From NCBI RefSeq assembly GCF_010093535.1, contig NW_022985177.1:1142074-1206073 (forward strand): a stretch of DNA of 64,000 nucleotides, given 5' to 3'. Source of the DNA: Lindgomyces ingoldianus. Its lineage: Eukaryota > Ascomycota > Dothideomycetes > Pleosporales > Lindgomycetaceae. The first letter of the stretch is position 1. Every line of letters starts with the position of its first letter. Position numbers and translations under genes: made by a program. Below the pieces are notes generated by a model. It ran no database searches and had not been told where the DNA came from. It was given only the letters and a program-made list of their open reading frames with translations. Below are positions 8,112-62,125 of this stretch, piece by piece.

Positions 8112-9906
8112 CTACAAGGGCCTCAAAGCACCGTCCCTCCGCTCTGCCCACCTCCCGTGAATCTTTTGCCGTAGATCCTTTCCCCAGAAGGCAATTGGTG
8201 TAAGAATGAGACCCGAGACAATCTGAAGACCGGCCAACTCGATACCGACAATGAGATACCCTTGAGTTGCAATCCAGGGGACGAGCGCGAGGCTGATTAA
8301 GAAACTGGCAACATAGCTTCCACCACCTACAACAACAAGTGCCGGTGCAGCCCATCGGGGGAATGCTTCTGTAACCCATAGGGTGTTAGCGATTGCAAGA
8401 GATGCGAAGCTAAACCCATTAAAGCCATAAGCAATGCAATAAATTGGAAAGCTCCACTGCCTGCTAACTGCGAGCCCATAAATGAGGGTGCTGAGAGAGC
8501 CTGTGACAACCGGTAGGATGTAGCAGACGAGGTAGTGTTCGGCCTCTCGAATTCCCTTATTTCTTCGTGCCAAATTCTTCAAAACGAAGCAGGAAAGGAA
8601 TTCCACGGAAGGCCATGCAAGGAGCCCACCGATACCAGCCGAATTGCTGACCATGACGATAGAGGATTTGAGCGAGTACGGAGGTGAGGTTAGGATTATG
8701 GGAAATGTTGCGCCAATGAACATCATGCCAGCAAAATTTACGGCCGTCATGATCACAACCCAAAAGATAAGAGGGTTCAGGGAACAGAAAAAGATTTGGG
8801 GGTAGCAATAGAGCATGGACATCCAGGACGTTGTTGTGCTTCGAGAGAAGAAGTATTGGTCTACGAATGCGCGTATCCAGGATCGAGAAGGAGTGTGGGG
8901 AAGTCCTTTGTTAGACCAATCATCGCTCTGGTTGATGTTGTCGTCCTCGTAGATGATGATTCTCTCCGAGGCGGTTTGCTGAATGGTGAGGCCATTATAG
9001 GCCACAGTCGGCCTCTTGAAGTATGTCTCGGGGAAGACGAGAAGAGCCATGACGAAGGTAATGGCAGCGGGTATGGACCAGTATATATAAAAGCGGCGCC
9101 ACTGAGTTCCATGATTTGTCAAAGGTGGAACGCATGAAAGGGAAATGACGCCATAACCCCCAACCGTTGACCAGACTGCAGCAATAGCCCTGGGCCGCTG
9201 GTGAATAAAGGTTACGTCGATGACGATTAGAAACAACTACATCATTAATGGTATTTCAAACACAAGGTTGGGGACAACTGACAACACTGAGGCCAAAACC
9301 ATCGGCAAATCCAAGCAATGACACGCATGCTAAGAGCTCGTAATAGCTCTTTGAGGCCGATGCGCCCAGTGCTGCAGCAACTTGTAGAAAGGCTGCAATG
9401 ATAAATACGGGCCGCCGACCGAGAGCAAACGTCAACGGAATCCACAGGAAAGCGCCCAGACCCATTAGTACTGTAGGGGCGGTAACCAAAGTTTCGATCG
9501 TGAACGGAAACATCTGCTCCTATGCTGTCCGTTAGTCAATGTTGAAATATCAATCGTTAGCAAGAAGTCAATGGCTTACCTTTAGTGGGAACGAGGCCTC
9601 GAGGCCTTTCAGAGCCAAGCTAGCGCCTTGCGTGAGGACAGTCCCGATGTAGGCAAACAAGCCGGCTGAGAGCAGAGATAACCCGCGCTTCCTCCAGCTC
9701 CAATTGAGTGGATCATGAGGGTTCTCAGAGGGGATCGGAAGCTTGACAATTTTTCCATCCCCAGCGATAAGAAAGACTGAGCCGGACAGCTCGAAGGAGT
9801 TAGGCCTCAGGCGTTCTACCCTTGCCCTCTCCGGATCGCGTGGGATGGAAGGAGTAGGAGCCATCGGGGTGCTGGGCGGGCTGACTGGACGCGAATTGAG
9901 AGCCAT
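8112..9906 (-). CDS. MFS transporter (DHA1-like), three exons
   Basis: Predicted 562-residue plasma-membrane transporter of the major facilitator superfamily. Exons are 9906-9580, 9519-9283 and 9236-8112. Intron 1 (61 nt) is GTAAGC...TAG. Intron 2 (46 nt) uses GTCAGT...TAG. Both lie in phase 0 and splicing removes the in-frame stops. The N terminus is a cytosolic Ser/Pro/Thr-rich tail followed by NPHDPLNWS, the 'NP..P.NWS' motif common in fungal drug:H+ antiporter (DHA1) proteins. Exon 2 carries LGRRP, the MFS motif-A loop. Exon 3 has a long central cytosolic loop (ERIIIYEDDN region) and the second six-helix half, ending with a charged tail. Length and motifs fit a complete protein. The substrate cannot be told; drug or metabolite efflux is the family-based guess. 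No cluster partners lie next to it. Confidence 0.88.
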
Positions 9907-20475: not shown

Positions 20476-21035
20476 ATGAAGTTCGCTTCCTTCGCAGGCT
20501 TCTCTGCCCTCTTTATTTCTTCACTCGCTCTTCAGCAAGCCCCCTCTTTTGAAGGCAACTCCACCATTGTGGTGGTCGACAATGCCCCAGCTGCCCCTTC
20601 CGCTAAGGCGTTCACCAAGCGCGCACCACCCGAAACTATGATTCTTGCCAACTGCGACCCCTCCAGTTCCTTTGGGTCTTACATGTTCTACTACAACGCA
20701 GGACATAATGCTCAAGGTGCTCCAGACGCTCAATGTATCGTCAAGCAGAACAGCTTCGTCACTTGGGAAGGACGAACTATCAGTTGCACATTCCCCGCGA
20801 GCGGAGTCACCTTCACTAGCAACATCGTTGCTGGTGCTCAAGGTCAGGCCGATTACTCCATCGTCGGCACGGCGTTCAACGATTTCCATGGATTCACTTG
20901 TCGCAAGGATGACAAGCACGTTATGTGGTCCGGGACTGGCTTCTCGTGCAAGACTATCTACTACTGCCAGCCTGTGAGTATACTCCCAGAAGAAATGCCC
21001 GTATTGTACGATGCTAATGTTTCTACGAGCAGTAA
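20476..21035 (+). CDS. Small secreted cysteine-rich protein with Kex2-like site
   Basis: Exon 1 is 20476-20973 (166 codons). A 59-nt intron at 20974-21032 (GTGAGT...GCTAAT...CAG) is followed immediately by TAA at 21033. The spliced product is therefore 166 residues ending YYCQP. An unspliced message would add 22 residues. Residues 1-18 are a signal peptide (MKFASFAGFSALFISSLA). A pro-region follows up to a Lys-Arg at residues 48-49 (FTKR), a likely Kex2 site. The mature part has six cysteines, consistent with three disulfides, and aromatic-rich segments. I do not recognise a named family. Size, cysteine count, signal peptide and position beside a RIP-mutated block fit an effector or extracellular interaction protein; this is inference. 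A TATA box lies 93 bp upstream. Confidence 0.75.
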
Positions 21036-23941
21036 GCAATAGGTGATGTGGGGACACTTCGGTCTTGCCTTGGTAGTCGGGAAAGAGGTGATTTTGGCTG
21101 GAAAAAAAAATGAATGGACATCCACTCGCTTGTCATTGATAGTTTCAGTTTTGGAATAAAAGAGTAAATCGTCTGCGCAGACATAAAAGAGTTACATAAT
21201 CCATTGCCGCTCGTGGCTTGATCATATGCACTATTCTCCTGCGCCTTTGAGTCCGCCTACAGCCGGCCACATCGAGTTAAAAAAAAAGATTATATTCCAA
21301 ACCTGACACGTGACACCTACTGAGTTTAGTTTCGGGACGTTCTCGCAATTGAGAGGCTCGTTGACCTAGCGTCGGCATGGAGCGTCGTCGGGAAATCTCT
21401 GCTAGTTTCCAGCTTTAAGTCAATTCGAACACTGGATGTCGCAATGGGGGATCCATTCAAGTGGCATGTTACTTGTTTGTCAGAATTGCCAGAATCGCAC
21501 GTTAGTGACGTTGCGCGAAACCGTTGACGCTGTTGAGGGGGCGGGGGACAGGCATGCTCAAAGGAAGCACGGAAGAACCTCGGGAACGCCAGGATCTAGG
21601 TAGGCCACCTGACTCATCGTATCGCACTCAGGGGAAAGAGGAAAGCATTTTTGAGGCCTTCGTTCCTACGACTGCTTCCACCCATCAACAGCCCAATTTA
21701 AACTGCATTATCTTACTGAGGGTCCGCGGAAAAATGAGAATCAAACGTCGTGTAATGCAGAGCCAGGCGTAATTGTCCATAGGTACTTGATACGAACAAT
21801 CTAACGCCGAGCCAGACGTCAGAACCTCTCCCTCTTCACACCTTGATCTATTGCTTACACAAGAGCAGTGGTTTCGCCCAAACGCCTAGCTACCTCCCTG
21901 TTTGAAGAAGATCCGTTCCCCGTTCTCATTGCCGCCGACGCAGGTCTTTGTGGAAGCCCGTCTGCCAAGGCGCATTTCTCTCACTAAGTATGATGGGTAT
22001 GCCTTACCGTAAAGCCTTGCAAAGTCTAGAATGTCGCGGCTAAGACCAAAGGCCAGCGTGGTTTACAGCCTGCCCCGGCTTCATACGGATGTTGCCAGGA
22101 GTGGCGTCTTAGAGCCCCTCGAAGATCGCGAATCTTTGTTTGCCCCTGGGAGGGACCCTTCTCAGACTTCGGAGCGCTTAAGGATATCCAACTAAACCCG
22201 AATCTGCGTTGATTTAGTGCATGAACCACCGGTATTGCTCGAATCTTAGCCGCCTCTGTGAGACCTCAACCGATCCACCTGTTGGTGAATCCCATGATTG
22301 CTCTCATGGGTAAGCGGCGGCCCGGCGCTGGGGGTTTTCCCAAGACAGAGCCAACGAACGTAGAAAAGTTACCCCGATGGACCAAAATGGGTCCTAGGGA
22401 GCCCACGTCATGACCTGACCTTGTGTGTTAGCCTCCACCGCAACCGGGACACCTCTTCGATCTCGTCTCACTGGATGCTTGGTATCTCAACGCATTAACA
22501 AACCCCAAGTACGTTTTGTGGAGAGCAAGCCAACCCATCACGGTCGCTCGGACGGATTCTCTGCAGTATTCAGAAACACAGGCTCCGCGAGCAAACAAGA
22601 CCACAGCCTTTGAGCCCTTACCGAAAACCTGTATAAAATACCAAAGCTCGGTAGAGTGGGTCGGCGGCGAGTGCCTATAGCGTTAGAAATGCTTCCTCTT
22701 TTCGATACTCGTGGACGTTATGGGACGACCGCGAATTGAATCTAATCGAGAAAATCACCACGAGACAGGACTCTGCATTGCGCCGGCCTTCGTATTTTTA
22801 GATGCTTAGATGCATTGGATAACCGCCTCAACGGTAATGGGCCGGGAGGATGAGGTTCATTATTTGCCACTGTCCGCGTTTTGATTCGCAAACCCTGTAG
22901 CACATCTGCACGCTTCGGCCTGCAAGTAATTTCTTACTGAGTGAGTAGCTCCCGATCGAAGTTGAGTGTGGAAGGGACAAGCCCGCTCTGCCCTTCTTCA
23001 CGCTCTAATACGGCCTCCGCTCTGGAATGATAATTTCGAAAGGTATTTTTGAACGGGGATGATCACAAGTTACTTGGTACGATACTGCCAAACACAATAA
23101 TTCGCGTTCCAAAGACCCGCAGAATTGGTGGATTGTAAAATAATCCTGTGATCACTGGACCTAATGGCGCGAGCAATTCTCTTCCAATGGAAGAGTGCAG
23201 ATGTCCCCGCGGTCTCAACCCCTCCACAGCCTTTCGTGCAAGTCCATTACTGGAGCTGCTAATATTGCAATCCTTAGATCCCTTAAACCGAATCCAACGT
23301 ACTAGACACCACGCTAGCCCACGATTAGGACGCAACAACCCATTGCACAACATTTGAACTGAGCTCAGTTGCTTCAGACTGCCTTACAGAATGCACGTGA
23401 CGGGGATGCCCCTCGATAGATTTCCGCTGCTAGCACTAACGCTCAGATATCGCGGATCAAATTCGCCAGATCTTGTTTCAAACATCTCGGGACGTGCTTA
23501 TCCGTTGCAGCGCCTGGCTTTGCAAGATCCCGGCGCGTATGTTTGCAGTGCCGAGACCCAGTCGTTTGTGTGGCGCAGCCACTTTCCGGCGCCAAGAGGC
23601 GCCTAAGGAAACCTTCGAACAACGCAACGAATCTATTATTGTGACCAATGCTATTCTTATGGAAAAGCTCTGTCGGTTATCTAATGTGAGAGGACGTGCC
23701 TTATTCATGGTCATAGATTGAATCCATCCGATCACCTCCCCAGATCTCTAGATCTTCCGCCCGCCCACAACCTCGACCATATCCGCTTTTAAGTGTGCTC
23801 ACCCTCCGATCTCTCAATAATACTTTGGCTCCAACTCATTTTTGTTGCCCTCTGTCCGTTTTTAGTCTTCTTTCAATTCTGAGTTCTCTTTCTAAGGTTA
23901 ATTGTGGCCTCACCGATCAATCCACCTTCCTACGCATCTAA
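21036..23941. other. Long gene-poor, GC-balanced region
   Basis: About 2.9 kb with only short overlapping open frames (for example 21524-21772, 22425-22613, 23391-23721) that show no domain, signal peptide or consistent frame. I see no rRNA, tRNA or transposon. The 3' end of the gene ending at 21035 lies at the left and the pyrimidine-rich leader of the gene at 23942 at the right (about 23800-23941). Decayed genes are possible but unsupported. Confidence 0.45.
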
Positions 23942-51600: not shown

Positions 51601-54600
51601 CAACCTAGTTATAAGCTACTATATAAGATGTTACTAAATAAATTAAAAGTGCTCTAAAAATACTTTAATAAAAACTTAGAAAAAAAGTTTATTTAAGCTA
51701 GCTTCTTACTAGTAGTATTACTTATACTATTTATAAAAAAACCTAGGAGTAGGCTTTAATTTTACATTAACTACTAAGGACTAAATGCTGTTACTATTAA
51801 AAACTAATACTTAATTTCTTTTTTATAAGAAACTTTAAGCTAACTAAGTAAAGTAAAGTATTTTATAAAGTTAGATATTATTACTGCCTTTAATAAGCTA
51901 AAGATAGTAAAGGGTAATAAGTAGCTAATAGTGTTTTAGACTTAATATAAACTATTTAAGTACTTAGTAATGCCCTTTAGCTTAGCTAACACGCCTAGTA
52001 CTTTTTAATATTTTATAAACAACTTACTTTAACCCTACCTAGACGTGTTCTGCACTGTGTATATTAATAATATTCTAATCTACAGCAATAGCCTTTTAGA
52101 GCATAAACAGCATGTACGCTTAGTGCTAAAGGCTATAAAAGAAGTAGGTCTGTAACTTAACATAGATAAATGCAAGTTCTACTAATTAAAGGTTACATAT
52201 TTAAGATATGTAATCTTTATAGATAGCATTTAAATAAACTTTATTAAGGTTTAGACTATGCTAAATTAGTAATACCTAAAAAACATAAAGAATATTTAAG
52301 CCTTTATAAAATTTGCTAACTTTTACTAATAATTTATTAACAACTTTTTACAGCTAGTAAGCCTTATAATTACACTTACTAAGAAAAAGGTCTAATTTAA
52401 CTTTAACTTAAATTACTAATAGTCTTTTAACTAGCTAAAAAAAGCTTTTACTAAAGCCTTAATACTCTACTACTTTAACTTTAAACTACTAATACTTGTA
52501 GAAGCTAATGCCTTAGACTACATAGTAGCAGGAGTTCTCTTCTAGACTAAGCTAGATTAGACTATTAAGCCTATTGCATACTTCTTAAAAAAAATAAGTC
52601 CTGCAGAAGGCAATTATAAGATTTATAATAAAAAATTACTTACTATAGTACACTACTTTAAACAATAGTAACCTAAACTAGAAGGTGTAGCGCATTTAAT
52701 ACAGGTTCTATCTAACTACAAGAACTTATAGTACTTTACAACTATAAAATAACTTAGCTACTAATAAGCTTATTAGTTTAAATACTTATTTTATTTTAAT
52801 TTTAAGATTACTTATTATTCTAGTTAAAATAAAGGGAAACTAGATGCTTTTATAAAGTAATTCTAAAATGTCCTTACTTAAAAAGAAGTATAAAAGGCTT
52901 AATACTAAACTCTACTTTAACCTAAGCTATTTTTAGACCTTAACCTAAATAAAATAAATTAGATAATTAATTAGATTATTACTAATAAGTATTTAAATAA
53001 TAAATTTATTTAAAAAACTTTAGACCTACTCTAAAACAGCGCTAGTTAGTTAAAGAAGGTAACACTAGCTAACTATAAAAACTAAAATAGTAAGCTATAT
53101 TACTATAACTAACTTATAATCTCTAATTTTAACAAACTAAGAATTAAACTACTTTAAATTATATAAAACTTACTTGTTAAAGGACACCTAGGCAGAGAAA
53201 AGACTCTTAACCTACTATAGAGAGAGTACTACTAGCCCCGCATGTTCTATACTGTACACTAATATATATTATGTTGCTATACTTACTGTAAAGTAAAGGC
53301 CTCTTAAAAAAAGTATAATAGCCTACTTAAACTACTTCTAATTCTTAAATAAGCTTAAAAAAATATATTAATTAATTTTATTATAAACCTACTTTTATCT
53401 AAAGAGTATATAAATATTATAGTAGTTATTAATTACTTAACTAAGTATTAACACTTAATACTATGTTCCTTTATAACTGCCTCTAATATAGCCTAGTTAT
53501 TCTACTAATACGTATAGGTTTACTATAGCCTGCCTAACATAATTATATTAAACAGAGGTACATAGTTTGTCTTAGCCTTCTAGGACAAACTCTGTAAATA
53601 GCTCTAAATTATTCTCTATCTATCTACAGCTTTTTACCTAGAGACTAACAGCTAAACTAAGAACATAAACACTGTAATAAAATAAGTTCTATAAGTGTAT
53701 ATAAACTACTAGTAAAATAACTAGGTAAAATAGTTAGCTATAGCATAGTTTAAAGCTAATAACATAATATTTAAATTAACATAAGTATCTTTATTCTTAG
53801 TAAACTATAAATACTACCTCTAAATAGAATTTAAACTACTTATAAATACCTTTTAACTAACTTATTAATTTATATAAGTAATAAACATAAATAGACTTAT
53901 TAATAAAATTTAAAACATATTTAAATATGTTTATAAAAAGCTTACATAGGCTTAAGCTTTTTAACAAAAGTATATAAACTAATTCTAAACTTTTACCCCT
54001 GTGTATGCAGCTAGTAAGAAGGTCTAGCTAAATGCTAGAAATATTTAAATAAACTAATAATTAAAGAAACTTAATTAGAAGAACTTTAGCCTTTTTATAG
54101 TAGCTTATATAGTCTTATTACACACTTACTAATTAATCCTACCTAATAGCATGAAGATACACCCTGTGTTCTATGTATTATTGCTGCGCTAAGTAGCCCC
54201 TAAATCTAACTATCTACCTAGACAGCTAAACTTACTACCTAAACCTATTATTATAAATAATAAACTAGAATATGTTGTAGAAGACATTAAATAGATCTAG
54301 TTTAATAAAAAGAAACATATTTATAAATACTTTATAAAATAGACTAGATATAACAAACTGTTATAGGAACCTGCAGAAGCTTTATAAGAGAACTCTATAG
54401 TAACCTAATTCTACGCCTAATACCTATCTAAACTAAACTTGTACTTTAATAAAGACAACTTAATGCTAGAACTACTAATGTAAAGGATTCCCTTCCTAAT
54501 AAGGGGGGGGGTACTGTTACAGTATCCTCCCTAGATCCTAGACATAACTGTATTAGACGCGTACTAGAGTATTATTAGTGCACGTCTAACATAAATATAA

Positions 54601-54849
54601 CATAACATAGACATAAACTTAAGCATAAACTGCTTTAACACTAACTAAACTTAGAACAGGCTTAATTTATACTTAAAGCGCTTAGACTTTTAAGCTAAGT
54701 ATTTAATTACTAATTTTCTTTTAAACCTTTCTGTTCCTTACACAACGTCTTGTACCTACTATGATACCTCACGTAGTAATTGAACTAGACCTCTGTGAAG
54801 CTCTATAACCTTACTCGTGCACAATCGTGACATCCACACAGTCGTAACA
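48630..54849. mobile_element. Solo LTR family E, split by Gypsy-1, with AGTAC target duplication
   Basis: The LTR lies at 48630-49167 and 54838-54849 (550 bp together), TGTTACGTTACTT to CAGTCGTAACA, with AGTAC on both outer sides (48625-48629 and 54850-54854). Gypsy-1 and its 5-bp duplication occupy the gap. The LTR has a TATATATA box near 48908 and several CCTCGCA repeats near 48935-49060. GC-balanced, hence not or only weakly RIP-mutated. Confidence 0.9.
49168..54832 (+). mobile_element. Complete Gypsy-1 chromovirus, RIP-degraded
   Basis: 5665 bp with 318-bp LTRs at 49168-49485 and 54515-54832 (TGTCACGG or TGTTACAG to CGTGACA) and TCCAC on both sides. A polypurine tract (AAGGGGGGGGG) precedes the 3' LTR. 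The interior shows in order a gag-like region, RT with YINNILIY near 52060, RNase H, an HHCC integrase zinc finger (HLGREKT... C..C near 53190-53310), an integrase core and a chromodomain-like tail near 54240-54350. All frames contain many stops. The 3' LTR end is less mutated than the 5' LTR. Confidence 0.94.
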
Positions 54850-54854
54850 AGTAC

Positions 54855-56076
54855 TAAGCTGCTCTAACAGGTTTTAGCTCTAAAAGCCCTAGTGTTTAAC
54901 TTTTAGGTAAGCATTGCAGCGCTCTTAGGCAGCTAAGAACAAGGTAGAGAGGGCTTAGAAAGAGCCTAGAGGGGAGGAAAGAGAGAAGAAAGAAAAGAAA
55001 ATAAGTAAACAACTAGGCGGCGAGCCCGCATCGGGAAATGGACGCACCCTGTTCAGGCAACCCGGGCCTCGCTTGCGCCTTCGCGCTACGCCCGAACCGG
55101 CAATCGACCTGGACGTCCGCCATAAAAGGCCCTCCCTCCGCCGTCATTTCCCCTCCCTCTCCTCGACCTTTTCTCTCTACTCCCATCCCCCAGCCCCCAA
55201 ACCCCCCACCAGCGCCAGCTGCTCCCATTGGGCCTCAGCAATCCCTTGTGAGGCATTTTTCTCGAATCTCCGTCGCCGTCCAACACCGCACTGCCTTCGT
55301 CGTGCCTCTCATTTCACCGCTGTGCGGACTGTGCGGCCCAGCTCCTCATCTCCAGTGATGGTTACTGCTGCAGCTGCTTGTGCGCTCGCATCCGCAAGCA
55401 TTTAGCAGCCAACCGGCTTTCCATTCTCTCATTTTCTCGCGCTCTCTCGCACTTGAGCACTCTTTGCTTCTCCATCTGAAGTTCTCTCCCCCTCTCTCGC
55501 AAGATGCTCGCTCATCCTGTGCTAGCGGCAGCTGCGGAGGAAGGGAAAACATGGGGGCCTGGTGCCTGGAAGCTGGCAGCCGACAGCTCGGAGATGGTGT
55601 CGGGCGTGCCATAAGAGGTGAGTGAAGCCCCGCGGACTAATCACCTAAAGGCACAGGGTACCGTCGGTGAGAATTGGCCATTCATGTGTTATCCGGCACG
55701 GACTCGTCCTACGTACAGCCTTGTGAAGGTTCGGCTTCCGGGTGTATGGGGTACTCGACTTTAACTCGTCAAGGCCCCTGCTCTGTGGGAGCGGAAACCT
55801 TACCTCTGTTGAGCTAGCTCAGTGTAGATAGAATTACTCCCCATTGCTTATTCCCCAAGTGTAATTTTCGCTACGGCACCTTTCCGTATTAGCGTCGCGC
55901 GTGAATTTAGGCGGCGGAAGTCGGACGGTTGTTGGGTTTCGCAAGCTGCTCATGCGTAGACGAGGCAGAAAGATAATTCAGACGATAGCGTAATAGTCAC
56001 TAGTTTTCGCAGCAACACTAGCTTAGCTGAAATATAGGTTGTGAATGATGTATTCTCCAATTTTTACCATTACATA
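54855..56076. other. Left edge of island 3, no confident gene
   Basis: GC rises from about 54990. Region 55020-55620 is GC-rich and pyrimidine-rich with overlapping open frames on both strands (about 55038-55405, 55380-55625). None has a domain, and their coexistence is explained by low stop density at high GC. It may be a promoter or an old exon. 55630-56076 holds no gene. Confidence 0.4.
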
Positions 56077-56357
56077 TAGTCGCTAGCGAAACCGGCTTCC
56101 CCCTCGAATGCGGCTGCAAACCCGCTCGCAAAAAAAGTCTTAGCACCCCACCTTACATATCTAGTAAAGCGCCACTGGTTTGAGCACGTGATTTGCCACC
56201 GTACGAGAGGGTACTTCTCTAATCTCTATCACAGTTTAAGCTCACGTGTGTGTGTTTTCTATTACGGCCACGCACCGTATGAGTATGGACCGTAAGTTTA
56301 AGCTCACAACCCTGTGGCCGGAGTGGGTCGGCCGCCTCCCTGCTAGCGGCGGTGGTC
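56077..56357 (+). repeat. Inverted repeat, left copy, flanked by TA
   Basis: 281 bp that aligns in reverse complement with 60730-60947. Shared blocks include AGTCGCTAGCGAAACCGGCT, GAATGCGGCTGCA, GGTAAAGCGCCACTG-like sequence, GTGCACGTGAT-like sequence and GAGGGTACTTCTCT. This copy has an extra segment of about 58 bp bounded by a repeated AGTTTAAGCTCAC. TA stands immediately outside each end. It may be one end of a large unit or a MITE. Confidence 0.8.
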
Positions 56358-56646
56358 TATTAATTACCTTAAAACACTATTAGGCTTAAGCTTAAGCATT
56401 GTTCATGTTACTTCGCATTCCAACGATCTTAGGAAAGATGCGGTGTAATGTACCCTAGAGACCACCGCCACCGCCGCCGCTTCTCTCTATCACGCCACAA
56501 CTTACTTTCTAAACTCCCTACCGCGCTTTTGAGTTTTGGAACTGGGAGGTTTGGGGCAGGCTTTGATGCGCGAGAAGCGCCACTTATGCAAGAATGTAGC
56601 GTGGATTGTTGTCGTGATATGACGCAGCTGGCAACCTTGGGACCTT

Positions 56647-57327
56647 TTATTTCCGGTGTTTAACTAAGTCATTGATAATTGTCGTTACCTCTCTTGCCAG
56701 GGCTTCAGCCGCTTCTTCTGGTCCCATATTCGTCACATCAGAAGTGATACCCTCGACACCATCGAAACGAAAGAGTTGGCACCTGGATCGCATTTCTGCA
56801 AGAACCTTAGGGTTTAAGAGCTTTGTAGTCCCACTGCTTCCCCGTTGTAGACTTGTTATTCTGCGTGTATTTTCTTTGATGTCGCACTCGAGGTAAACAG
56901 GCAAGAAAGGACGTCTGGCCCGTAACGCTGCTGCCTCGTATTCCCTTGCCACGTCACGGCCAAGATCATTATTGGATTGGAAATCTATGATCAAATACGA
57001 ATCTGAATCAGAGATGGGTAAAAGAAAGGTTAAAGGCGGCTGGTTTTGCTCACCGGTGAAGATAACGATGCGGGTCCGAAAGGCTGGATCTTCCACAAAA
57101 CTCTTGAACACGGCCTCTCTCCCCCGGCGCCTTTCCTGTTGGTAGTTTGGATGATCTCGCGAGAATTTTGCCTCCACCGGGTCGATTAAACTGTGGTTGT
57201 CAATTAATAGAGGGTCACCCTCGTCTAGGAGGGTCGCGAAGAACTTTGCAATCGTATGTTTGCCTGTACCAGGGAAACCATTGATCCAGATGAGGGGCCA
57301 CGCGAGTCTCGATTCTGAGGCGCTCAT
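56647..57327 (-). CDS. P-loop kinase-like protein, two exons
   Basis: 203-residue predicted cytosolic nucleotide-binding protein. Exon 1 is 57327-57054 and exon 2 is 56984-56647; the intron is 69 nt (GTGAGC...CATAG) and is a multiple of three without stops, so an unspliced frame also reads through. Splicing restores IFTDFQSNNDLG, which fits the family better than the read-through. I use the ATG of MSASESR; the frame is open further upstream but that part looks non-coding. The Walker A motif is GFPGTGKHT (about residues 17-25), followed by DNHSLIDPVEA and a HPNYQ.ERRRGREAVF helix, and by ECDIKENTRR near the lid region. This matches small fungal AAA_33/zeta-toxin-type P-loop kinases of unknown substrate. 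It is divergent from the multidomain gene at 58374 with a spacer of about 0.5 kb or more. Confidence 0.8.
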   Translation of the reverse strand: MSASESRLAWPLIWINGFPGTGKHTIAKFFATLLDEGDPLLIDNHSLIDPVEAKFSRDHPNYQQERRRGREAVFKSFVEDPAFRTRIVIFTGEQNQPPLTFLLPISDSDSYLIIDFQSNNDLGRDVAREYEAAALRARRPFLPVYLECDIKENTRRITSLQRGSSGTTKLLNPKVLAEMRSRCQLFRFDGVEGITSDVTNMGPEEAAEALAREVTTIINDLVKHRK

Positions 57328-57859
57328 GTTGCCGCAGTATGAGAAATGTGCAAGTGTAAAGCTGGGTGCCAAAGGTTCCGGATTAAGACAGGAGCAGATA
57401 GAGGCAGCGAATGACGAAGGGTTATATATCGAAGGACGTCTGAAGGGCAACCACGCTAGCAAGAAAGATGTTTGGGTGGATGTTTGCTACCGGACCGGCC
57501 GAGGTGGCAGGTCGGCTCGACTGGTCAGGCTTGTCGCACGTGTCTCACGCGATATCATACCCATGTACCGCACTATTCACTCATTAGGCATAGCCGCTCT
57601 CTCGTACAGTATATAGTCAGCCCAGAGCTCTATCGAGCTCCTTAGACCTTACAATACACTCGTGCAATCCACTTTGTTTGGATCTCACTACCTTGTCGAC
57701 TCGCTTCCCATATGACCCCTCCTCAGCTCATGCAAGAAGGCTCGCTGCCACTTCGTATTCTGGGGGTCGCACGACATTAGTATATCCCTTCACTGATGTA
57801 CGCTTGATTAGGGACTGTACCTTTGAGTTGTCTATAACCAAATCAGAAGAACTGCTGCG
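57328..57859. promoter_or_regulatory. Intergenic region between divergent genes, containing repeat F
   Basis: About 530 bp separating the kinase-like gene from the multidomain locus, therefore probably holding both promoters. Positions about 57600-57800 align with repeat F at 7111-7350 (AGTATATAGTCAGC, CTCCTTAGACCTTACAATAC, TTGTCGACTCGC), here in a non-RIP state. An insertion in this spacer could have altered the start of the plus-strand gene. Confidence 0.5.
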
Positions 57860-58373
57860 TTGATCCAAAACGTTAAATTCCTCTTTGATGCGGAATCACA
57901 GCAGTGGGGGTCCGTGCACCGACACAGTAGCTCGGAATCCCGCAATGTCGCAATCTCAAAGCTGTCTGTAATTCTCCAAAGAGGCTGCAGCAATAGCTGC
58001 CCCGACGTCGAAACGCAGCGAGAAATCCGGCGAAATCTTGTGCCAGTCCTTGACACTGCTGTTGCTGCGCTCAAAGCAGGTGTCACAGCCAGAGAGGTGG
58101 TCGTCAACGCAGTGGCAGCCTTGGAAGACTGCCCGCTATTTAACGCCGGAAAAGGGGCTGCACTGACCATCGAAGGCGACCACGAGGTAATCTACACACC
58201 CCAGGGCATGCATTGTACTGATTCGTATGAAAAGCTCGAGGCGGGACTGGTTGACGGTCGTTCAGGCTTGTATGGTGCGGTGTCTTGCCTAACGACGACA
58301 AAGAACCCTATCCTCGCTGCAAATGCCATCCTCCAGCATGGAGTGCACTGCATGCTAGTAGGCAATACTGCCG
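57860..58373 (+). pseudogene. N-terminal asparaginase/isoaspartyl peptidase domain, out of frame with the gene
   Basis: An open frame, running on to 58450, encodes the alpha-subunit part of a plant-type asparaginase (Ntn hydrolase). KLSVILQRGCSN stands where the family has an 'HGG' motif. REIRRNLVPVLDTAVAALKAG and ALEDCPLFNAGKGAAL follow, then EAGLVDGRSGLYGAVS and ANAILQHGVHCMLVG. There is no in-frame ATG before residue 117 of the frame; the open frame starts at TTG. The sequence continues homologously in the frame of the next gene after about 58370, so a +1/-1 shift or insertion separates them. It is either a decayed 5' half of one gene or a missed exon structure. Confidence 0.7.
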
Positions 58374-60590
58374 ATGGCGGGCGACGAGATATTCCGGCAA
58401 CTACTCGCTACCAAAGTTGCAAACCAGTATTCCCGCGGCTTCGATATTGAGAACGCTACTCGTCGCGCCGTTTCGCAGTTCGCCCTTATAGGAAAGCCTT
58501 GCGCAGTCGTAGCACTGGACGACCAAGGAAAGTTCTCCGTACAATCGACAGCTCGACTCTTGTCGACAGCTTCAGCATCCTCCAATCATCAGTCCACCGT
58601 GGATATGAGTTGTACCACATCTCCGGTGTTACCCCAGCATGTATTCTTCCGCAACCGGCGAATTGTCGCCGGTCTGTCGCGCTATCCCACTACTCGAGGG
58701 GAATCTCTAGTAATTCTCGAGCAACTAGGCGTGCATCTATTTTCACTTGATCGACAGGACTTTCTTGAGGTTATGTCCAGAGTAAAGCACCTTGCGCATG
58801 CACTTCGCGACTTCTACAATGTCGGACGCTGTGCGCTTGTTACTGAAGGTAATGGTTCGATCTCGATCGTTCCACTGCATGGCTTGGAAAAATCATGGAA
58901 GCCTGTGACTAGTCATGAGAAAGAGTTCCAAGAAACATACCCAGGCTATATTTCCTCCAAGGACGGACCGACCATGGATTCTGGGAGATTGGCTCAAATC
59001 ACTGCCACGATTCGGCGAGAGACCGGACTCAAGGAGCCTTTGAATCATTACTTCAAAGGCGATCATAGGGACAGTAATCTTTTCGCCAGGCTTGTCCGCG
59101 GGGAGCTCCCTCAGTCACGCGTATGGGAAGACAGGGAACATGTCGCGTTTCTCACGCCCTTTGCGAACACGCCTGGTTTCACGGTGCTTGTGCCCCGCGA
59201 ACATCTTACAAGCGACATTTTCAGCATTGAAGACACTAATTACGCAAACCTTATGGATGCCAGTTATACTCTCGCTGGTTATCTGATGAAAGCATTTGGA
59301 GTACCGCGCTGTGGCATGATATTCGAAGGCTTTGAGATTGACTATGCCCATGTCAAACTCATTCCTATCCACAGCCGCGAAGTTTATAGTCAGTCACTAG
59401 AGTCTGGTCCTACAACCGAGATGGCACCATACGAAGAGGGATATCGGGGATATGTCACCTCTCTGAACGGTCCTCTTTTCCAAGACCAAGAGTCCTTAGT
59501 ACTCGATGCGTCCTCTCTTCGGAAAATTATCCACTGCGAACGCATCCAGCCGCCTCAGTCTTGGAAGAGTCCCCGGGAGCACGCAACTGTTGTTCTGTCA
59601 GAATCATGGTATGAAAACCTCTTCACAATTCAAGATTCGCTCTTCCACTCGTCCGTCGGTTTCTTCAAGCTAGGCGTTAATTACAAGTACGCTTTTGTCC
59701 CAGCCACTACCAACGCAATAAGCTCTGCTATGGGTCTATGCTCCGACTCCCAGCCTGTACCCATAACGTTGCTAGGTCAGAAGACATATCTCGCAGACTC
59801 TATGCAATTTGCGCTAGAGTATTCCCTTCGCATAGAAGATGGTTTGGATGGAGTTTACTATATCAACACTTCTTTCCGAGGCGAGGATTCTGATGCCATG
59901 CATTTGAACCAATTTTACCATGTGGAATGCGAGCTCGCTGGTGATTTCGACGAAGGCATATCCGTAGCAGAGCGGTATCTGGTGAGCGTCATCTCTGCAC
60001 TCCTTCGAGACCAAAGCGATACCATCGAGGCATCAGTTGGCACGATTGAACACCTCACCGACTTCCTAGAGCTCTACCGACGACACGATCAGAAACTTCC
60101 CCGCATCACGCTCGAAGAAGCCCTCAGCCTCCCTGAGATGGACCAAACATGCTGGAAATACGTCGTCCCCGATAACAAAGCCCACGGTCGCACGATAACC
60201 CGCGCCGGCGAACAAAAATTGATTCAGCACTTGGGCGGTGCAGCCTGGCTGACCGAAATGGACCACCTCAGCGTCCCTTTCTACCAAGCCTATATACATT
60301 CCACCTCTCACAGCAAAGCTCGCTGTGCCGATCTCCTCCTTGGGAACGGCGAGGTGCTTGGCTTGGGCGAGCGACATGTAAGCTCTGAGGAGGTGAGGAA
60401 TGCGCTAAAGCAGCATGAGGTACTAGAGGAGCCGTATAAGTGGTATTTGGATATGAGAGACCAAAAGGAGATGAGGACGACGGGTTGGGGGATGGGCATT
60501 GAGAGATTTCTGGCGTGGGTTGTAAGGCATGATGATATTAGGGATTTGGTGGTAATGCCGAGGATGAAGGGAACCGAATTCCTTGTGTAA
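58374..60590 (+). CDS. Asparaginase-tail/HIT/HIT/AsnRS-like fusion protein
   Basis: 738 codons, uninterrupted, starting at ATG 58374. Residues 1-70 continue the asparaginase domain (ATKVANQYSRGFDIENATRRA, then KPCAVVALDDQGKFSVQSTA, where the family has the catalytic 'DTVGAVALD'). Residues about 85-205 form a first HIT-like domain ending SISIVPLHG and YPGYISSKDGP. Residues about 225-370 form a second HIT domain (NLFARLVRGELP, PGFTVLVPREH, YAHVKLIPIH at 324-333). Residues about 375-738 are a class II aminoacyl-tRNA-synthetase catalytic core: TYLADSMQFALEY, motif 2 FRGEDSDAMHLNQFYHVECE (501-520), GEVLGLGERH, PYKWYLDMRD and motif 3 GWGMGIERF (704-712), IRDLVVMPR. It is closest to AsnRS/asparagine synthetase A and has no OB anticodon domain. 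Likely chemistry is adenylation of Asp or Asn; the HIT domains could act on the adenylate. The partner kinase-like gene is divergent. Function is inferred. Confidence 0.85.
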   Translation: MAGDEIFRQLLATKVANQYSRGFDIENATRRAVSQFALIGKPCAVVALDDQGKFSVQSTARLLSTASASSNHQSTVDMSCTTSPVLPQHVFFRNRRIVAGLSRYPTTRGESLVILEQLGVHLFSLDRQDFLEVMSRVKHLAHALRDFYNVGRCALVTEGNGSISIVPLHGLEKSWKPVTSHEKEFQETYPGYISSKDGPTMDSGRLAQITATIRRETGLKEPLNHYFKGDHRDSNLFARLVRGELPQSRVWEDREHVAFLTPFANTPGFTVLVPREHLTSDIFSIEDTNYANLMDASYTLAGYLMKAFGVPRCGMIFEGFEIDYAHVKLIPIHSREVYSQSLESGPTTEMAPYEEGYRGYVTSLNGPLFQDQESLVLDASSLRKIIHCERIQPPQSWKSPREHATVVLSESWYENLFTIQDSLFHSSVGFFKLGVNYKYAFVPATTNAISSAMGLCSDSQPVPITLLGQKTYLADSMQFALEYSLRIEDGLDGVYYINTSFRGEDSDAMHLNQFYHVECELAGDFDEGISVAERYLVSVISALLRDQSDTIEASVGTIEHLTDFLELYRRHDQKLPRITLEEALSLPEMDQTCWKYVVPDNKAHGRTITRAGEQKLIQHLGGAAWLTEMDHLSVPFYQAYIHSTSHSKARCADLLLGNGEVLGLGERHVSSEEVRNALKQHEVLEEPYKWYLDMRDQKEMRTTGWGMGIERFLAWVVRHDDIRDLVVMPRMKGTEFLV

Positions 60591-60729
60591 CTGTCTTTAC
60601 CATCGCCCGTCTCCTAGGATGGGGAACCTTGGTTCCGATCTTTCTTTCCACAGTCTATCTCCGCTCATTTGTAGATCTGCGGTGGAATAGAGGGTAACAA
60701 GCAATGGTATAAAGGTAGAAGAACACCTT
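60591..60729. other. 3' flank of the fusion gene
   Basis: Short AT/GC-balanced region between the stop codon and the inverted repeat. A T-rich stretch (TTTCTTTCCACAG) may be part of the 3' untranslated region. Confidence 0.4.
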
Positions 60730-60947
60730 GACCACGCCAGCAGGGAGGACAGCCGACCCGCTCCTGCCATAGGGTTGTAAGCTCAAACTGTGACAGAGAA
60801 GTACCCTCTTGTACCGTGGCATATCACGTGCACAAAGCAGTGGCGCTTTACCAGATAACTATGTAAGGTGGTGTGCCAAGACTTCTGTTCGCGAGCTGTG
60901 CTGTGCTGCAGCCGCATTCGAGGGGAAGCCGGTTTCGCTAGCGACTG
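60730..60947 (-). repeat. Inverted repeat, right copy, flanked by TA on its outer side
   Basis: 218 bp, reverse complement of 56077-56357 without the extra segment of about 58 bp. The outer end reads GCGACTG followed by TA (60948-60949), mirroring TA at 56075-56076. The inner end stops at GACCACGCC with no TA next to it. Confidence 0.8.
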
Positions 60948-61483
60948 TAAAGCAAAACTCATATGCACACATCTCTTTCGTGCCTAATTTCTATTAAGAT
61001 ACGTTTCAACCTAATATTTGGATGGAGTTTTAGTTCCTTCCTGACTGCACGCGATGTTCTTTCTGGTCAACGTCGTTGCGGTGCGGCCCGGCGAGTAGGG
61101 GGGTTGCTGATTGGATGGCTTTTTTCGGAGGTACCGGCCCCAAAATCGAGACGGTTTGGGCCCTCCCCCACTCCGATTCCCTCTGGTGGCTTCCCTTCCA
61201 CCAAATCTCCCGTTGTCGACACAGTGGACCTGGTATCATCCTCTCGCTATCAGGTATACGGACGTGATGACGAGTCCTTTCTCTTTCAACCAAGAGTTCT
61301 TCGGCCCTCAAGAGCAGGGCTACTTACCTTGATGACACACAATTTGTAGGTACACCATTTAACGCCTCACAGACCCCCTGAGCCACCTATCGCGGTTTCT
61401 CAGACTAAACGAGGGACGTTACCCATCTGCAGACACAGTTAGGACCGGACAGGCTCCGATTCCTTTAACTAGATGAGTGGGAC
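60948..61483. other. Right edge of island 3, no confident gene
   Basis: GC-balanced. Several overlapping frames at 61030-61350 without domain. A short frame beginning ATGACGAGTCC at 61266 ends after about 20 codons. Possibly the start of a gene cut by transposons, but unsupported. Confidence 0.4.
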
Positions 61484-61903
61484 TGTCAGATTGAAGCACT
61501 GTTTCTGGGCTTCCTGAGATGAATGATGGGTTTGGATGTGATGTATGGGATGATGATTGATTGTATTGGTTTATCGATCCTTTTGCTGCTCTACTCGTGT
61601 TGCTCGGCTTTTGTTTTTCCGATCCGAGTCCCTCGCGCACTAGCCCTATGCGCGACCAGCTTGCAACATGCTGCAATTTGCTGCAACATGCTGCAAAATG
61701 CTGCAAAATGCTGCAATTTGCTGCAATTTGCTGCAACATGCTGCACAATGCTGCAAAATGCTGCAAAATGCTGCAACATGCTGCAAAATGCTGCAACATG
61801 CAGCAATTTGCAGCAACATACTGTTCGAGCTTATTGCTCGTACTATGTAGCAGCTTTCGTCAAACGTTCCTCCTGTCTTGACAGTAGGTGCGCATATCTG
61901 ACA
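61484..61903 (+). mobile_element. Decamer-repeat LTR-like element (family I), copy 3, GGGAC duplication
   Basis: 420 bp from TGTCAGAT to ATCTGACA, with GGGAC on both sides (61479-61483 and 61904-61908). It holds an expanded array of about 15 decamers TGCTGCAANN at 61661-61820. The copy is GC-balanced and practically unmutated, so it is probably the youngest of the three. Confidence 0.9.
61661..61820 (+). repeat. 10-bp minisatellite TGCTGCAANN, about 15 units
   Basis: Units have a constant TGCTGCAA core and a variable dinucleotide (CA, TT or AA); the last two read TGCAGCAA. The other two copies of the element carry about 2-3 and about 6 units. All six frames are open here because the unit has no stop codons in any phase, which explains the overlapping open frames. 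Confidence 0.92.
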
Positions 61904-61908
61904 GGGAC

Positions 61909-62125
61909 AAGCATAATAGTTACAGAGAGGAGGTGTCCACCTGCCTCCACTACTTAATTATGTGGAAGGTTGTCCTTAATAACAAGGTAGTACATTAGGA
62001 TACAGAGCAAGACATTGTCCTAATTTCTATTAGGTATTAGGATACTATCCTTAGGCCTAAGCTTGAACGGCTTCTAGAAAGGAAGTTCAGGCATGGCCGG
62101 CAAATGCGGTGTGACAACACTAATA
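61909..62125. other. Short unassigned stretch
   Basis: About 215 bp between the family I element and the pogo-like element, moderately GC-rich (GGAGGTGTCCACCTGCCTCC palindrome near 61930). No gene or known repeat. Confidence 0.4.

Follow-up and report, generated by a model that had tools for sequence, protein, structure and literature searches.

An apparently decaying fungal gene from a family of fused asparaginase, HIT and AgnA-like synthetase enzymes with a possible role in asparagine-nucleotide phosphoramidate chemistry

What kind of enzyme joins asparaginase sequence, HIT domains and the catalytic core of an asparaginyl-tRNA synthetase (AsnRS) in one chain? The question arises from a 64,000-nucleotide stretch of the Lindgomyces ingoldianus genome (contig NW_022985177.1, positions 1,142,074 to 1,206,073), analysed here as a whole and referred to as the window, in whose open reading frame (ORF) list a frame of 738 codons was confirmed at 58374-60590 (+). 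A first-pass annotation, made from the letters alone, had seen in this frame two HIT-like segments along with a complete class II synthetase core that has motifs 2 and 3, and Pfam, PDB matches and a model bear out two folds of HIT type and the class II core (motif 2, FRGEDSDAMHLNQF; motif 3, GWGMGIER). We lean, on the strength of sequence comparison, towards a multidomain enzyme of asparagine- or aspartamide-nucleotide phosphoramidate chemistry, acting at a phosphorus-nitrogen (P-N) bond, with the window gene as a decaying copy; the earlier observation was partly confirmed and its interpretation partly supported.

The fusion recurs well outside the window. Protein searches produced 158, 580 and 193 matches, of which 120 each were listed, and alignments of 23 and of 28 proteins were made from hand-picked sets. 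Of the 120 homologues listed from the search that found 158, 44 combine Asparaginase_2, HIT and tRNA-synt_2 (Pfam column, assessed by eye), the named carriers among the matches listed being ascomycetes, teleosts and an ostracod, while many other homologues found with the 738-aa query were shorter pieces or stand-alone cores. Asparaginase and core were present in all 23 aligned longer homologues, with a HIT call in 15 of them, and a chytrid protein combining asparaginase and core received no HIT call although its HIT2 motif is preserved. Most fish proteins among the matches listed add a carnitine acyltransferase domain (PF00755), which is also present in a protein of the sulfur bacterium Candidatus Parabeggiatoa, as in most animal proteins. 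With the Parabeggiatoa protein as query (193 matches), the 120 listed included the same architecture in a 1,607-aa Parabeggiatoa form, the brachiopod Lingula, gar, eel, eelpout and prickleback. The EHxxxD of the acyltransferase domain, presumably its catalytic His motif, is followed by G in seven of eight proteins inspected and by A in Lingula. The Parabeggiatoa protein is encoded by one uninterrupted ORF on a 6.5-kb contig of a metagenome-assembled genome (MAG), with P0186 on 3 contigs, and may stem from a eukaryotic contaminant of that MAG.

From the deletion and frame break of the window copy one might suspect a chance frame or a fault of annotation that corresponds to no biological unit; the joint presence of the three Pfam families in 44 of 120 listed homologues, from fungi, fish and an ostracod, and in Parabeggiatoa and Lingula too, has already refuted this idea, to which we give practically no credence. 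Since the domain order recurs in all these organisms, far more often than chance would allow, the architecture is genuine and conserved rather than a coincidence of frames, and a caveat of the first-pass annotation, that other fungi might always carry separate genes, does not hold, homologues being fused in fungi and beyond. The parts are of known kinds and their combination is new to the literature searched, in the available parts of which no description of a fused asparaginase/HIT/AsnRS-like enzyme was found; the family is real and unusual, and little studied.

In the window copy, an N-terminal-half remnant of Asparaginase_2 lies at 57965..58373 (+; Pfam PF01112, E-value 2.9e-23; tblastn with P0004) in another frame, and the 738-codon ORF opens with a C-terminal-end remnant (58374..58610, +; PF01112; P0004 aligned from residue 222) in frame with HIT1. 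For this second remnant, profile positions 232-304 of PF01112 aligned to residues 3-74 at 22.3 bits, below the cutoff of 27. HIT1 (58635..58883, +) is a HIT-like fold without the histidine triad, as judged from the secondary structure of model mddf507358d80; HIT2 (59079..59372, +; Pfam HIT at residues 243-308; PDB 7mqw and 3p0t) is of MccH type, with F269, E318, Y324, H326 and K328; and residues 394-738 form the AgnA-like class II catalytic core, a relative of AsnRS, at 59553..60587 (+). The asparaginase reported earlier ahead of the HIT domains is thus in frame for its C-terminal end, whereas its N-terminal part lies in a different frame and about 90 codons are gone.

P0004, a close relative of the window protein (79% identity over residues 222-901), aligned in tblastn with residues 8-142 to 57965-58402 (65% identity) and with residues 222-901 from 58377 onwards in the other frame; the genome search with it gave matching stretches for residues 7-130 and 221-901. 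The asparaginase frame breaks near 58370, and the roughly 90 codons absent between its parts (P0004 residues ~131-220) comprise the catalytic Thr and the STGG block. The catalytic Thr of TVGA, diagnostic of Asparaginase_2, is absent from the window copy and present in 23/23 aligned homologues, so the functional asparaginase assumed earlier has to be given up for this copy; elsewhere in the 68.4-Mb assembly, the missing block found weaker matches only (46-47% identity). A GT..AG insertion in the alignments marks a likely 48-nt intron at 58187-58234 within the N-terminal remnant. Between the start of the match and the nearest stop codon ahead of it, that frame showed no ATG, and an upstream exon may carry its start. 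In the tblastn alignment, the asparaginase HGG motif reads QRG. The core is altered as well, with A at P452 and C at G456 (SSAMGLCSDS). Both positions are invariant in 116/116 cores (33/33 eukaryote-type, 83/83 bacterial), and among rows of a larger protein set that reach the position P452 is kept in 261/264 and G456 in 273/275, the exceptions being P0031 and P0055 at P452 and P0088 at G456, with P0111 gapped at both. The window copy accordingly departs from the SSPMGxGSDS signature, which was defined in this analysis from the core alignment. With its split asparaginase, lost catalytic block and changed P452 and G456, the copy looks degraded; we file it as a degraded relative, not a working member, of the AgnA-like synthetases, and take the gene as a decaying copy of a genuine multidomain enzyme, though 738 codons are still open. 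It is the one copy found in the L. ingoldianus genome, where the search gave two further matches of 28% identity. The ATP (adenosine triphosphate) and amino-acid pocket positions are kept in the core alignment, and the objection that the pocket might have been lost therefore fails.

To which synthetases does the core belong? Pfam, PDB matches and the model agree on a catalytic core only, with HIT domains in front and, as first noted, no anticodon-binding domain. In a core tree of 119 rows (quick method, 41/116 inner branches open), 117 rows including AgnA were separated (99, starred) from the remaining two, which are AsnRS-like sequences of this genome, and the fused forms, fungal stand-alone cores and Parabeggiatoa formed one 34-row group (100, starred) among bacterial stand-alone cores. 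A plain AsnRS or asparagine synthetase was rejected on family scores: the AsnRS model TIGR00457 gave 112.2 bits against a cutoff of 342.6, over the core region only and with the anticodon domain missing, and NF005053 (asparagine synthetase A, NCBIfam) gave 212.3 bits against 322, with AgnA itself at 190.6. Glu518 of the core aligns with a Glu of AsnRS that we take to bind the Asn amide; in AsnRS, a Glu and an Arg bind the Asn side chain. Among 26 matching plasmid records was agnA of pAgK84, annotated 'Agrocin84-synthetase', with 38% identity over 99% coverage. By homology the core is best placed with AgnA of the agrocin 84 cluster, which appears to be its closest relative with a described role, rather than with AsnA, archaeal AS-AR or ErdS, the models put forward at first. 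In the available text of a review, agnA is a truncated AsnRS homologue that has the catalytic but not the anticodon domain (PMC4392301).

These comparisons also bear on asparagine synthesis or cycling, in which the core would be an ammonia ligase resembling AS-A or archaeal AS-AR and the asparaginase would reverse its reaction. We regard this as very unlikely: besides the score of 212 against 322, a synthetase fused to an asparaginase would be futile, AsnRS structures outrank AS-AR in the structure matches, and agnA lies among genes whose annotations are typical of antibiotic clusters.

The second HIT domain points to the chemistry. MccH, a phosphoramidase of the HIT superfamily, splits the P-N bond of aspartamide-adenylate; MccH-like proteins have Lys for the third His, Glu ahead of the triad and Phe for the N-terminal His, and K103H or H101N abolishes MccH activity (PMC7157772, in the text available). 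The Glu, catalytic His and Lys of the MccH-clade motif ExxxxxHxHxKxx are present here as E318, H326 and K328, and occur together in 206/208 HIT2 matches, which are the full-coverage ones of 213, were picked by HIT2 similarity so that proteins having lost HIT2 are left out, and include many near-identical fish proteins. A less selective count, over proteins with asparaginase and core, gave 149/156. At the HinT H39 position the window protein has Phe (F269), while homologues have F in 83/208 and L in 87/208. The PDB chains matched by HIT2 (7mqw, 3p0t) read HLHVH at the triad, and 3p0t served as template of the published MccH model, according to the part of the source available. At bacterial locus L029, ExxxxxHxHxK occurs in a HIT gene of its own, 6.6 kb away from the core. 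HIT2 is accordingly classed as MccH-type, a putative P-N phosphoramidase, which indicates P-N chemistry rather than the generic editing module first suggested. That both HIT domains are active is unsupported, the histidine triad of HIT1 being absent in 23/23 aligned homologues.

Gene neighbourhoods offer a further view. A scan of bacterial genomes yielded 108 loci encoding a core relative, of which the best 80 were used. In pAgK84, agnA is followed by a methyltransferase gene and a second LeuRS gene (agnB2), with the MccF-like agnC5 further on, and plasmids of Peribacillus and Exiguobacterium carry a core, a methyltransferase, an S66 peptidase, an AlaRS-related gene and an AlaRS gene. Searches with agn proteins (tblastn) placed an AgnC5-like S66 gene at 61/80, a methyltransferase at 46/80 and a LeuRS at 6/80 loci, counts that lack a random-locus baseline; by 70% groups the figures were 37/50, 28/50 and 5/50. 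A simple ORF script gave S66 in 49/80 and methyltransferases in 48/80 loci. As this script misses or misplaces genes in GC-rich loci (the core itself was recovered as an ORF in 66/80), the tblastn counts are preferred. This make-up, for which there is no random baseline, would fit clusters that produce mimics of aminoacyl-adenylates and carry self-immune synthetases. Short AlaRS-like (8/80) or HisRS-like (7/80) genes, grouped by simple ORF clustering, occur at L069, L071, L086, L091 and others; their Pfam scores at core loci are below cutoffs, and they are possible acyl-tail or immunity enzymes. In a Legionella MAG (L049:5425-13420), consecutive genes encode YcaO, an AgnA-like core, GNAT, ThiF-rhodanese, ThiS, a class V aminotransferase and a separate asparaginase; the product is perhaps a sulfur-containing nucleotide.

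The same neighbours can be read in terms of detoxification, with the fusion destroying toxic aminoacyl-nucleotides (HIT at the P-N bond, asparaginase at the C-N bond) and the core binding or capturing the adenylate. MccH and MccF are self-immunity enzymes, going by the literature text available, and both cutting activities would share one chain; yet the core keeps the residues that a functional synthetase needs at its ATP site, the bacterial cores have the surroundings expected of a biosynthetic gene (transporter, methyltransferase and separate S66 genes), and such a scheme leaves the acyltransferase domain found in animals and Parabeggiatoa without a part to play. We consider detoxification unlikely.

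How might a P-N enzyme of this kind work? Starting from what is observed directly, namely domain order, homology, clade, conserved residues, bacterial neighbours and the damage to the window copy, we infer every chemical step, each substrate and the sequence in which the steps occur. With asparagine and ATP bound, the AgnA-like core of intact relatives would form asparaginyl adenylate. The amide nitrogen would then become bonded to the phosphorus of adenosine monophosphate (AMP), either directly or by way of a succinimide, the path that MccB takes on a different fold; by the succinimide route, the side-chain amide would attack asparaginyl-AMP to give the succinimide, and a second ATP would provide the P-N bond. 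The MccH-type HIT2 could split or transfer at this bond. Asparaginase_2 enzymes cut beta-amides, and here the asparaginase might cut the amide C-N bond to leave aspartate and adenosine phosphoramidate, a job that MccF-like S66 peptidases could take in bacterial clusters. The N-terminal carnitine-acyltransferase-type domain of most animals and Parabeggiatoa could add a fatty acyl group. The first-pass proposal of an Asp or Asn adenylate put to non-translational use is likewise supported as likely.

Several points weigh against P-N synthesis. The scheme requires the beta-linked isomer, whereas the substrate of MccF and MccH is the alpha-amide, and S66 together with HIT may serve immunity rather than synthesis. 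S66 was not found with 19/80 cores or the methyltransferase with 34/80, again without a random-window baseline. The first triad His is replaced by Y324 (Tyr 191, His 16 and Ser 1 of 208 HIT2 matches), and seven of the 156 less selectively counted proteins do not show the Glu, His and Lys set: P0105, P0107, P0109 and P0135, which have no HIT2 match, two partial ones and one with a gap. The matches listed include stand-alone fungal cores, which means that some cores can do without HIT and asparaginase. AgnA forms a long branch, with many forks of the quick tree open; its role was deduced from sequence, in the text available (PMC4392301), and the accessible parts of the literature searched gave no activity for any family member.

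In fish, the orthologue with the same architecture is si:ch211-256m1.8 (saiyan), and core identity with five fish proteins (P0056, P0084, P0191, P0207, P0227) is 52-54%. Dinogunellins contain 2-aminosuccinimide. These P-N-bonded phospholipids of adenosine come from eel blood and from cabezon and northern blenny roe, and the review section available names no biosynthetic enzyme for them (PMC6429109). Saiyan is an iridophore gene for which the accessible parts of the literature searched state no enzymatic function, nor did these link it to dinogunellins. Carriers of the gene among the matches listed include eel, prickleback, eelpout and sculpin, and also many other teleosts. The fused architecture would suit dinogunellins. 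We entertain, tentatively and with considerable doubt, a nucleotide-phosphoramidate machinery of eukaryotes (and Parabeggiatoa) in which saiyan (acyltransferase-asparaginase-HIT-HIT-AgnA-like core) makes dinogunellin-type lipids, fatty-acylated asparagine or succinimide joined through N-P to adenosine, and the fungi make a shorter non-lipid relative with help from an adjacent kinase. If true, this would supply a biochemical hypothesis for saiyan and a candidate enzyme for the dinogunellins of fish roe.

An adenylate-forming core and an acyltransferase domain in animals and Parabeggiatoa would also agree with an enzyme that, through an adenylate, passes an aspartyl or asparaginyl group on to a lipid or another small molecule, much as ErdS, an AspRS fused to DUF2156. 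Against this stand the Pfam matches of the window protein, among which there is neither a tRNA-binding nor a DUF2156 domain, and the fungal proteins, in which no acceptor-binding domain was seen; we judge transfer of this type decidedly unlikely.

The kinase is encoded at 56647..57330 (-), divergent to the fusion gene, as a P-loop kinase-like gene with one likely intron (AAA_18, weak, below cutoff). It shows 41% identity to the N-terminus of P0016 from Trizodia, in which a kinase relative is fused N-terminally to the same fusion enzyme, and a kinase relative adjoins a core at bacterial locus L064; the kinase is thus linked to the fusion enzyme by adjacency in the window, fusion in Trizodia and adjacency in L064. 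Both genes are flanked by copies of a dispersed repeat of ~175 nt, the left at 56075..56246 (+) and the right, inverted one at 60776..60949 (-; about 85% identical over 153-156 nt). The repeat occurs at nine genomic places; six of the seven others were inspected, each holding a single copy within a 3-kb stretch. A transposon carrying both genes between inverted repeats is not shown, the six inspected sites being single copies. Just downstream of the right repeat, 61662-61841 is a tandem array with a 10-nt unit (TGCAAMATGC-like). GC content in 2-kb blocks ranges from about 0.24 to 0.51 across the window, the gene pair lying in an island of 0.45-0.51 (54001-62000) with AT-rich surroundings. By eye, a 374-aa ORF at 8112-9236 (-) is MFS-transporter-like, and a 188-aa ORF at 20476-21042 (+), with a signal-peptide-like start and several cysteines, is perhaps a small secreted protein. 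A search of the window against Rfam gave nothing at gathering scores.

P-N nucleotides are rare, and in the accessible parts of the literature searched, synthesis of N-acyl phosphoramidate nucleotides is shown for ThiF-type MccB alone; a chain that joins an asparaginase and a phosphoramidase of MccH type to a core of AgnA type allows a direct test of whether an AsnRS fold can make a P-N bond too. Known systems resemble the family in part. AsnRS has the anticodon domain missing here, and the core scores far below its cutoff. The plant-type Asparaginase_2 enzymes ASRGL1 and EcAIII share the complete fold and catalytic Thr with intact homologues, but the family domain is fused to HIT and core, and the window copy is without the catalytic block. 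MccB of microcin C, using Asn, two ATP and a succinimide, joins the Asn amide nitrogen to the alpha-phosphorus of ATP in the way proposed here, according to the text available (PMC12250964), but has an unrelated ThiF fold and a ribosomal peptide as substrate; the Pfam matches found for the window protein do not include the ThiF domain PF00899. Saiyan differs from the fungal form by the extra N-terminal carnitine acyltransferase domain in most fish. MccH matches HIT2 at F44, E93, H101 and K103 (F269, E318, H326 and K328) with identical spacing, yet retains the first triad His where HIT2 mostly has Tyr, and HIT2 shares its chain with a synthetase core. Agrocin 84, the product of the agn cluster, contains an N-acyl phosphoramidate (P-N) bond and carries an acyl tail and a modified nucleoside of its own. 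AgnA itself is a stand-alone gene product with no fused HIT, asparaginase or acyltransferase, but like the window core it lacks an anticodon domain, and it is homologous along the core, with a methyltransferase gene adjoining and an MccF-like S66 gene in its cluster.
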